Source: Deltaproteobacteria bacterium
GTDB taxonomy: Bacteria > Myxococcota > Myxococcia > Myxococcales > 40CM-4-68-19
Assembly (NCBI GenBank): GCA_005879315.1
Contig: VBLC01000046.1
Location: forward strand, 1-64,000
Direction of reading: 5' to 3'
DNA: 64,000 bases
Below are positions 24,878 to 27,908 of the stretch, piece after piece. The notes below the pieces were generated by a model, which made no database searches, was not told the origin of the DNA, and saw nothing but the letters and a program-made list of their open reading frames with translations. Numbering within the stretch: position 1 is the first letter of the stretch; every line of letters begins with the position of its first letter. The position numbers and the translations under genes are program-made.

Positions 24878-25498
24878 ATGCCCGCCAAGAAGCGCTTCAT
24901 CGCGGTGGCCGGCAACATGGGAGCGGGCAAGAGCGAGCTGGTGGAGTTCCTCTGCCGCCGTTACGGGCTCACCCCTTTCTACGAGCCCAACGAGACCAAC
25001 CCCTACCTGGCCGACTTCTACGCCGACATGAAGTCCTGGGCCTTCCACTCGCAGATCTATTTCCTCACCCACAAGTTCCGCCTGCATCGCCGGCTGATGG
25101 GGGAGCCGGGCACGGTCGTGCAGGACCGCACCATCTACGAGGACGCCGAGATCTTCTGCGAGAACCTCCGCCGCAGGGGAATGATCAGCAAGCGCGACCA
25201 CCGCACCTATCGCGAGCTGTACGAGACCCTCTGCGCATCGCTCGCGCCGCCGGATCTGATGATCTTCCTCAAGGCCCCCATCCGCACGCTGCGCAAGCGC
25301 ATCCTCAAGCGGGGCCGCAAGATGGAGATCGACCTGCCCGCCGGGTATCTCAAGGCGCTCGACGAGCTCTACGACGAGTGGCGCGCCCGCTACACGCTCT
25401 CGCCCGTCATCGAGCTGGACACGGGCCGGCTCGACTATCTCACCGACCTGGTCGACCGGCTCGATCTCTTCCGCGCCGTCGAGCAATTCCTCGTTTGA
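24878..25498 (+). CDS. Deoxynucleoside kinase family protein
   Basis: A 206-residue P-loop kinase of the dNK family, which phosphorylates deoxynucleosides in salvage. The P-loop is AVAGNMGAGKSELVEFL near the start. The Glu of FYEPNETNPYLADFY and the Asp-Arg of VVQDRTIYEDAEIF are the catalytic base and substrate-binding signature. The LID has RKRILKRGRKMEI. It resembles bacterial deoxyadenosine/deoxyguanosine kinases, but substrate cannot be decided by eye. ATG 24878 lacks a well-placed Shine-Dalgarno; GATAAT ends 7 nt before it, which suggests a leaderless mRNA. Confidence 0.88.
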   Translation: MPAKKRFIAVAGNMGAGKSELVEFLCRRYGLTPFYEPNETNPYLADFYADMKSWAFHSQIYFLTHKFRLHRRLMGEPGTVVQDRTIYEDAEIFCENLRRRGMISKRDHRTYRELYETLCASLAPPDLMIFLKAPIRTLRKRILKRGRKMEIDLPAGYLKALDELYDEWRARYTLSPVIELDTGRLDYLTDLVDRLDLFRAVEQFLV

Positions 25499-25517
25499 GG
25501 CTAGTATATCTGCCCGG

Positions 25518-25669
25518 AAATTCGTTCCGTGTTGCTCAGCGATGAATGTCAGGGGTGGGTTGTAGACTGGCCCCGTCTTCAGGAGCCCCAGGCTTCAGCC
25601 TGGGGCTCCGAAGGCGACAATCTACAAGCCACTCCTGAGATCCATCGCCAACCAACACGGAGCGAATTT
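25518..25669. repeat. 152-bp imperfect palindrome between convergent genes
   Basis: The arms 25518-25566 and 25621-25669 are inverted copies matching at about 41 of 49 positions without a gap (for example AAATTCG, TCCGTGTTG, GCGATG, TTGTAGA and their complements). The centre is a perfect 12-bp stem, GGAGCCCCAGGC (25582-25593), a TTCA loop and GCCTGGGGCTCC (25598-25609). It fills nearly the whole gap between the kinase (rightward) and the histidine kinase (leftward) and holds no gene. It could be a MITE-like element or a bidirectional terminator. Confidence 0.85.
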
Positions 25670-25686
25670 GCGACTACGTGTACCAG

Positions 25687-26595
25687 TCAGGCGGGCGGCA
25701 GGCGGAGCACGAAGGTGGCCCCGCCACCCTCGGTGTCGAGCAACTTCAGCGTCCCCGAATGGGCTTGGGCGATCTCCCGGCTGGTGGAGAGGCCCAGCCC
25801 GCTGCCGCCCGCCCGGGTGGTGACGAAGCGCTGAAAGATGCGCTCGCGGTTTTCCGCCGGCACGCCCGGCCCGTCGTCGGAGACCGAGACTTCCGCCGAC
25901 CCATCGGCCGCGCGCGTGCTCACCACGATGCGGCTACGGGCGAAGTCGAGGGCGTTGAGCAGCAGGTTGAGGAGCAGCTGGCGGATGGCGAACGGATCGA
26001 CGTCGACGCGCGGCGGCGCACCCGACTTCTGCTCGAGGACGAGGTCCTTCATCCGCGCCATCGGCCGCACCATGGTCAGCGCATCGTTGACCAGCTCGTT
26101 GACGTCCTGCGGCTTTCGCGCCATCCGCTCGCCGCTGGCGTAGCTGAGGAAGCTCTGCAGTTGCGCCACCGTGCGGCGCGTCTCGTTCTCCAGCTCCTTG
26201 AGGTGCCGGGTCACTTTCGGATCGGACTGCGCGCGCTCCGAGGCGGTGCGCGCCAGCTCGGCGAAGCCGAGAACGACGGTGAGCGCATTCTTCATCTCAT
26301 GGGCGAACCCCGCGGTGAGCAAGCCCACGGTGGTGGTGCGCTGCGCCCGCTCGAGCGCGTGGCTGATCTCCTGCAGCCGCCGCTGCAGCGTCCATCCCGC
26401 CCCGACTCCCAGCGCGGCGAGGACGACGACACCGGCGTAGTAGACGCCGCCCAGGTTGATGCCGCGCCAGAGGCTCACCACCAGAGCGATGGTGGAGAGC
26501 AAGAAGATGATCGGGCCCCAGTAGAGCGCGCTGAGCGCGATGTTCCGCGCCCGCAGGGCGGCGCGGAGGCCTGGGGAGATCGGTCGGCGGGTCAC
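25687..26595 (-). CDS. Sensor histidine kinase
   Basis: A 302-residue inner-membrane kinase. Two hydrophobic segments (about 27-43 and 51-69) are joined by a very short loop, so there is no periplasmic sensor domain. The DHp domain has the phospho-acceptor His99 in GFAHEMKNALTVVLGFAEL. The ATPase domain shows the N box (NLLLNALDFA), G1 (VSDDGPGVP) and G2 (GGSGLGLSTS). The start is taken as GTG 26595, which gives MTRRPISPG; no strong ribosome binding site is visible, and the upstream frame overlaps coaBC. No response regulator is adjacent; the receiver at 21609-22007 is the nearest. Confidence 0.88.
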   Translation of the reverse strand: MTRRPISPGLRAALRARNIALSALYWGPIIFLLSTIALVVSLWRGINLGGVYYAGVVVLAALGVGAGWTLQRRLQEISHALERAQRTTTVGLLTAGFAHEMKNALTVVLGFAELARTASERAQSDPKVTRHLKELENETRRTVAQLQSFLSYASGERMARKPQDVNELVNDALTMVRPMARMKDLVLEQKSGAPPRVDVDPFAIRQLLLNLLLNALDFARSRIVVSTRAADGSAEVSVSDDGPGVPAENRERIFQRFVTTRAGGSGLGLSTSREIAQAHSGTLKLLDTEGGGATFVLRLPPA

Positions 26596-26649: not shown

Positions 26650-27837
26650 ATGGCGCTCCAAGGCAGGCGCGTGCTCCTCTGCGTGGGGGGCGGAATCGCG
26701 GCCTACAAGGCCTGCGAGACGGCGCGCCTTCTCGTCAAAGCCGGCGCACAGGTCCGCGCCGCGCTGACGCCGGCCGCGCAGAAGTTCGTCTCGCCGCTCA
26801 CCTTCCAGGCGCTGACCGGCGAGCACGTCGCGACCGACCTCTTCTCCGCCGAGCAAGAGCTCGCGGCGGGGCACATCGCGCTCTCCGACTGGGCGGAGCT
26901 CGCCCTGGTCGCCCCGGCCACGGCAAATCTCCTCGCGCGACTGCGCCTGGGGCAGGCCGACGACGTCGCCGCGGCGACCCTGCTCGCCATCGAGCCGCGC
27001 AAATGGCTCCTCGCTCCGGCGATGAACGAGAAGATGTGGGCGAGCGCAGCGGTGCAGGAGAACTTGCGCATCCTGCGCGAGCGGGGCGCGCGGGTGGTCG
27101 GTCCCGCCGTCGGGGAGATGGCCGAAAGGACCCACGTCGGCCCCGGCCGGCTCGCCGAGCCGGAGGTGATCGCGGCGGCGGTGGAGGTCCTGCTCGGACC
27201 GCACGACTTCGAGGGTGTCCCTGTGCTGGTCACCGCGGGGCCGACCCGCGAGGCCTTCGACCCGGTCCGCTTCTTGAGCAATCCCTCCTCGGGGCGGATG
27301 GGGTTTGCCCTGGCGGAGGCCGCGCGCGATCGCGGCGCGCAGGTGACGCTCATCTCCGGTCCGACCGAGCTCCCTCCGGTGTCGGGCGTGAAGCAGGTCG
27401 GCGTCGTCTCCGCCGAGGAGCTCGCCAAGGCCGTCGACGAGCATCTCGACGGCGTGCGCGTCGTGGTCATGGCCGCGGCGGTGGCCGATCAACGCCCCGC
27501 CGACCGCGCCCCGCAGAAGATCAAGAAGAAGGAAGGCGAGGAGGTCGTCCGCCTGGTGCGCACGCCCGACATCCTCGCCGGCCTGGGCGCGCGGCCACAG
27601 CATCCGCTCCTGGTCGGCTTCGCCGCCGAGACCGAGAACCTGGAAGAGAACGCGCGCGAGAAGCTGGCAAAGAAGAACCTCGACCTGATCGTCGCCAACG
27701 ACGCCGGCGCCTTCGGTCAGGAGCAGAGCCGGGTCGTCATCCTCGGCAAGGATGGAGCGAGGGCCGAGCTGAGCGGCAGCAAGCTCGCGCTCGCCCACGC
27801 CGTCTGGAACATGGTCCGCGAGCGCCTCCCTCGCTAG
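26650..27837 (+). CDS. coaBC: Bifunctional phosphopantothenoylcysteine synthetase/decarboxylase
   Basis: CoaBC makes 4'-phosphopantetheine from phosphopantothenate, cysteine and CTP in coenzyme A synthesis. The 395-residue protein has the flavin-binding CoaC domain first ([16 protein letters not shown], then APAMNEKMW with its conserved Asn and Met). CoaB follows from about residue 190 ([41 protein letters not shown] and the NDAGAFGQ segment). ATG 26650 gives [21 protein letters not shown] in a TGC-GATGAT context ends 6 nt before it and no ribosome binding site is evident. Confidence 0.95.
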
Positions 27838-27867
27838 TCGCGGCCGCCGAAGGCGGCTTAGCGACTA
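27835..27867 (+). terminator. Hairpin at the coaBC stop codon
   Basis: TAGTCGC (27835-27841, containing the coaBC stop codon) pairs with GCGACTA (27861-27867), and GCCGCC (27843-27848) with GGCGGC (27852-27857) around a GAA loop. No U-tract follows, so it is terminator-like but may instead protect the 3' end. Confidence 0.4.
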
Positions 27868-27908
27868 CGCCGTTGCCTTTGTAGGATCCGTGATAGAGGG
27901 TCGCGGTC

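Follow-up and report, generated by a model that had tools for sequence, protein, structure and literature searches.

The near-palindrome that separates two convergent genes in the window (the whole 64,000-nucleotide stretch of DNA analysed here) derives, with a probability that we put at roughly 0.85, from a Y1 (HUH tyrosine) transposon with long imperfect inverted-repeat ends, of which it is a core-deleted, non-autonomous remnant. The basis of this model is a family of copies in the same genome, remnants of tnpA inside the same arms, sites that are empty in congeners, a CTAG or TTAG at the left edge and the junctions found in the hairpins.

The palindrome covers about 182 bp (25505-25686), directly behind a CTAG (25501-25504). 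Its inverted arms (25515-25577 and 25610-25672, 63 nt each) show 79% complementarity and enclose a perfect central stem (25582-25594 with 25597-25609) that can be drawn as 12 bp with a TTCA loop or as 13 bp with 2 nt; family comparison carries the symmetry out to the CTAG at 25501-25504 and to a CCAG at 25683-25686. Folding is far beyond that of shuffled sequences, both for the DNA (-62.8 kcal/mol, z = -12.0) and for the minus-strand RNA (-108.1 kcal/mol, z = -11.6), neither value being reached by any of 200 shuffles. A near-palindrome between convergent genes for a kinase and a histidine kinase had been reported in a preliminary description of this DNA, and it is real: the flanking genes encode a deoxynucleoside kinase and a convergent sensor histidine kinase, and the 188-bp gap between them is almost wholly taken up by the element. 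The 152 bp assigned to it there (25518-25669) do lie within the palindrome, but stop about 17 bp short per side of the limits given by family comparison. The features are as follows.

24878-25498, plus strand: deoxynucleoside kinase gene (PF01712), flanking gene, with its stop at 25498
25501-25504, no strand: target tetranucleotide CTAG at the left edge, 2 bp past the kinase stop TGA (25496-25498); YTAG stands left of 11/11 copies, and congeners have empty sites
25505-25686, no strand: probable core-deleted (tnpA-less) copy of the family A Y1 element, 182 bp, delimited by family comparison
25505-25577, plus strand: left arm (TATATCTGCCCGGAAATTCGTTCCGTGTTG...), of a left-end type in common with the left ends of family A'
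25582-25609, no strand: central hairpin GGAGCCCCAGGC-TTCA-GCCTGGGGCTCC, putatively a 'double-foot' in which the two inner hairpins standing left and right of tnpA in longer copies are fused
25610-25686, minus strand: right arm, ending in ...TTTGCGACTACGTGTACCAG and abutting the histidine kinase stop codon (TCA, 25687-25689)
25687-26595, minus strand: sensor histidine kinase gene (HisKA and HATPase_c), convergent flanking gene, start codon picked by eye

When the genome and its relatives were searched for the arm sequences, as had been proposed, the element proved to be multi-copy rather than single-copy, with at least 11 full-length related copies of 168-628 bp in its own genome. Six of these make up family A, with bodies of 182 bp (window), 183 bp (C50), 253 bp (C78), 527 bp (C92), 582 bp (C5) and 628 bp (C123); the other five (C40, C101, C77, C89 and C58) form the sister family A' and its relatives. 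Most copies share an edge pattern in which YTAG is followed, across the edge, by TA...TACTAG, the deviants being the window copy, C5 and C123 at the right edge, and C58 and C89 by about one base near an edge. Fragments of a Y1 (HUH, IS200-like) tnpA, some of which keep the HUH or the Y motif, lie inside the same arms in C5 (residues 6-91, two frames), C123 (about residues 6-91, two frames), C92 (residues 79-134), and C58 and C40 (both in pieces); no tnpA is recognisable in C78 and C101, which are of intermediate length. A protein search of the genome for an intact cognate tnpA found fragments only. Its other Y1 proteins were rejected as parents, there being no arms of such kind around them. 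One further locus in this genome (C51:7386-7532, L087) has the inner hairpin pair only, without the outer CTAGTA arms, and is like the simpler elements of congener G001, and a related genus carries a 424-nt near-complete palindrome (G011 C246, L044:1218-1644), 74% self-complementary, with similar hairpins inside.

Congeners G001 and G003 have the same convergent gene pair as the window locus, without the element. The site of C40 is likewise empty in G005, where the gene junction was read directly (the G005 row alone being relied on in the multiple alignment, where rows of some congeners had slipped out of register), and in G004 and G006 as judged from match coordinates, which also show the site of C77 to be empty in G005 and G006. 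It follows from these empty sites that the element has moved. The left-edge tetranucleotide is CTAG in 9 of the 11 copies and TTAG in 2. In the window CTAG is scarce (13 observed vs 51 expected). Most copies sit just behind stop codons, and the TAG stop of a neighbouring gene falls within the edge tetranucleotide in C50, C78, C5, C40, C101 and C77 (Pfam-supported genes) as well as in C92 and C89 (where the gene is an open reading frame only); REP ends, too, often give neighbouring genes TAG stop codons (PMC3733652). At C40 the flanks, when joined, give TAGTG, in which a stop and a GTG start overlap; the insertion separates the two while keeping both, since the right end also reads CTAG. A search for target-site duplications, suggested in the preliminary description, had a divided outcome: CTAG stands on both sides in 7/11 copies, so that the formal edge of the element is ambiguous and a 4-bp target duplication is compatible with the sequence, but the sides are unequal in the remaining 4/11 (CTAG/CCAG twice, TTAG/CTAG and TTAG/TCAG).

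Three of the copies (C50, C58 and C123) are situated at the CTAG foot of an unrelated repeat, REP family B. This repeat (GTCGC, a hairpin and GCGACTAG, often with a GCATCTCACAACCTCAAGCTGCAACTC tail) occurs in about 20 or more places in the genome, among them C78:104219, C40:13770, C52:92290, C39:16329, C93:25346, C28:21181 and C106:26150, and RAYT-like proteins of the same genome might serve it. A copy in the window (CTAGTCGCGGCCGCCGAAGGCGGCTTAGCGACTA, 27834-27870) starts at the stop of a coaBC/Dfp-like gene, whose stop codon is the TAG of the repeat's CTAG.

The hairpins suggest how the palindrome arose. C78 has two inverted inner hairpins close together, GGAGCCCCAGGC-TGAA-GCCTGGGGCTAG and TAGCCCCAGGC-TTCA-GCCTGGGGCTCC, in place of which the window copy has a single GGAGCCCCAGGC-TTCA-GCCTGGGGCTCC, the product expected of a deletion between the GCCCCAGGCT direct repeats of the two. 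An equivalent fusion, keeping the loop of the left hairpin (TAAA), is found in family A' (C77 and C89), and in C50 the fusion lies at another hairpin, an outer one (GTGATTCGGATCGAAG...). It is therefore likely that several separate core deletions lie behind the short forms. The parent element would have had the order left arm, inner hairpin, tnpA, inner hairpin, right arm, and would have landed at a CTAG within the handful of bases separating two convergent stop codons; a deletion between short direct repeats within the two inner hairpins would later have removed tnpA, fusing the ends into a near-palindrome. From what is known of the enzyme family, movement would take place as single-stranded DNA through a hairpin-binding, CTAG-cutting TnpA, and the short form could be mobile in trans. 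The element is presumably inert at present, as no intact cognate tnpA was found.

The mismatches spread over the arms had been taken as a sign of selection for pairing, a proposal that we reject. Of the 19 mismatches in the window copy, 15 are present in the family consensus and are thus ancestral differences between left and right, and the arm changes over six copies are 35 that break pairs, 5 that restore a pair from one side and 0 that compensate on both. Changes that preserve pairing are confined to the inner hairpin, which between families has changed on both sides in 5 of its 10 pairs (a covariation score reached by 0/500 shuffles); its loop (TGAA/TAAA) and the feet (GGAG/CTAG) are mostly conserved. 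The conserved structure is the inner hairpin, not the long palindrome, and the element offers a clear example of how an intergenic near-perfect palindrome can come about when an inverted-repeat transposon loses its core, with no selection for pairing involved.

These changes, which break pairing in the arms and never compensate for it, also argue against a bidirectional transcription terminator or mRNA 3'-end stabiliser selected between convergent genes, the former of which had been put forward in the preliminary description. Both strands do fold very stably and the majority of copies lie just behind stop codons, but a scan of the palindrome for terminators and promoters found nothing, neither strand has a T-run, the same gene pair does without the element in congeners, and the copy was placed by insertion; a role of this kind is therefore highly improbable, although the element may have a secondary effect on transcripts. 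An Rfam search of the palindrome gave no match at the gathering score, and the sub-threshold matches were taken as chance.

The same description had called the element MITE-like or REP-derived, which is right in kind (multiple copies, an empty congener site and a relation to Y1 transposases) but holds neither for a DDE-type MITE nor for a GTAG REP. A classical MITE would have terminal inverted repeats and a 4-bp CTAG target-site duplication, and would be moved by a DDE transposase in trans. The long terminal inverted repeats and the seven copies with CTAG on both sides fit such an origin, and IS5-like elements have YTAR as their target; the transposase fragments inside the arms, however, are all Y1 and none DDE, and the two sides are unequal in four copies, which makes a classical MITE very unlikely. 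Mobilisation of a REPIN-like repeat by a resident RAYT-like protein, rather than by a lost tnpA of its own, is also unlikely. Several intact RAYT-type Y1 proteins and the separate REP family B with its CTAG foot are found in the genome, but the GTAG/GTGG 5' foot is absent, the RAYT-like loci are without inverted arms of such kind, and the transposase remnants of the family itself are IS200-like and carry subclass 1.2 motifs.

The transposase of the family can be placed through its relatives. Intact homologues of the remnants are present in congeners, one of them scoring 72 bits with Pfam Y1_Tnp and 64 bits with the NCBIfam IS200/IS605 model (cut-off 55), and a profile of four intact proteins has IS608 TnpA and other IS200-type transposases as its nearest solved structures by sequence. 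The assignment to subclass 1.2 is by motifs: DHxH, WQ and Y---Q are found in 4/4 of the aligned intact proteins and the HH pair in 3/4, and the remnants in the genome itself read YVLDQKQQH (C92) and YVLDQRHHH (C58). Among the relatives that a single scan of bacterial and archaeal genomes yielded, 74 of the 77 that are readable have Y---Q--HH and 71 have WQ. The two flanks of tnpA match each other in inverted orientation above all 40 shuffles in 48 of the 61 relatives with enough flank, which belong to many phyla, as against 1/58 for control flanks 600 bp further out. Direct matches exceed the shuffles in 34/61, an excess partly due to hairpins matching in both senses. The subclass 1.2 tnpA genes of L176, L181, L196, L203, L207 and L227, all from other phyla, are flanked by long repeats in direct instead of inverted orientation (scores 95-117). 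The tnpA genes of this subclass are thus usually bounded by repeats, not always by long inverted arms. We give about even odds to a broader proposition, namely that TnpA-Y1 subclass 1.2 moves a widespread lineage of single-strand transposons whose ends are inverted hairpin repeats, and that in this Myxococcota lineage it targets CTAG, enters between adjacent or overlapping genes with stop and start left intact, and sheds palindromic derivatives devoid of tnpA. Of wider interest is the evidence for mobile elements formed by subclass 1.2. The palindrome is itself a relic; its family ties an uncharacterised subclass to real insertions with ends and a target that are defined, making the enzyme directly testable.

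The literature searched contained no paper on such elements in Myxococcota, and by comparison with systems described elsewhere the element is a variant of REPIN/TIRYT/PATE-like mobile DNA. The presence of a Y1 HUH transposase gene in the parent, evidenced by the remnants in five copies and a congener homologue above cut-offs, links it to IS200/IS605; those elements insert 3' of a short target of fixed sequence, have neither terminal inverted repeats nor a target duplication, and are cleaved as single strands at both ends under the direction of guide sequences. Here YTAG is fixed, but there are long terminal inverted repeats, atypical for IS200/IS605, and most copies have CTAG on both sides. 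Like PATEs (Dyall-Smith et al. 2011, PMC3119063), it is probably a transposase-less palindromic derivative of IS605 type that arose by repeat-mediated core deletion, and in both cases mobile elements are inserted into other mobile elements; PATEs, however, have near-terminal palindromes only and are without terminal inverted repeats, which extend here over 60-75 nt. With REPINs and double-foot REPs (PMC3116915, PMC6006769) it shares two inverted hairpin units, and its central hairpin resembles the double-foot product of a central deletion, but the foot is GGAG rather than GTAG/GTGG, the arms are long, the transposase is IS200-like and the copies are few. TIRYTs or TIRtrons (Di Nocera et al. 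2013, PMC3733652) have a Y1 tyrosine-transposase gene between long terminal inverted repeats and moderately abundant solo repeats, an arrangement that recurs here in the tnpA remnants of C5, C123, C92, C58 and C40. The described TIRYTs are RAYT-like, mostly of subclass 2.1 with a C-terminal HTH and a GGGGWSAS motif (PMC6006769), whereas the protein here matches the IS200 type only, has subclass 1.2 motifs with Y...Q instead of the class 2 Y...NP, and goes with repeats made of nested arms and hairpins and with CTAG targeting. TnpA-Y1 subclass 1.2 was described as lacking flanking structures and IS properties, and as occurring mainly in Cyanobacteria and Bacteroidetes (Quentin et al. 2018, PMC6006769). 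The proteins considered here are like it in their DHxH, WQ and Y---Q--HH motifs and their length of ~140 aa, but in contrast to the published members they have relatives that span many phyla with flanking repeats, and the family of one genome has empty sites.
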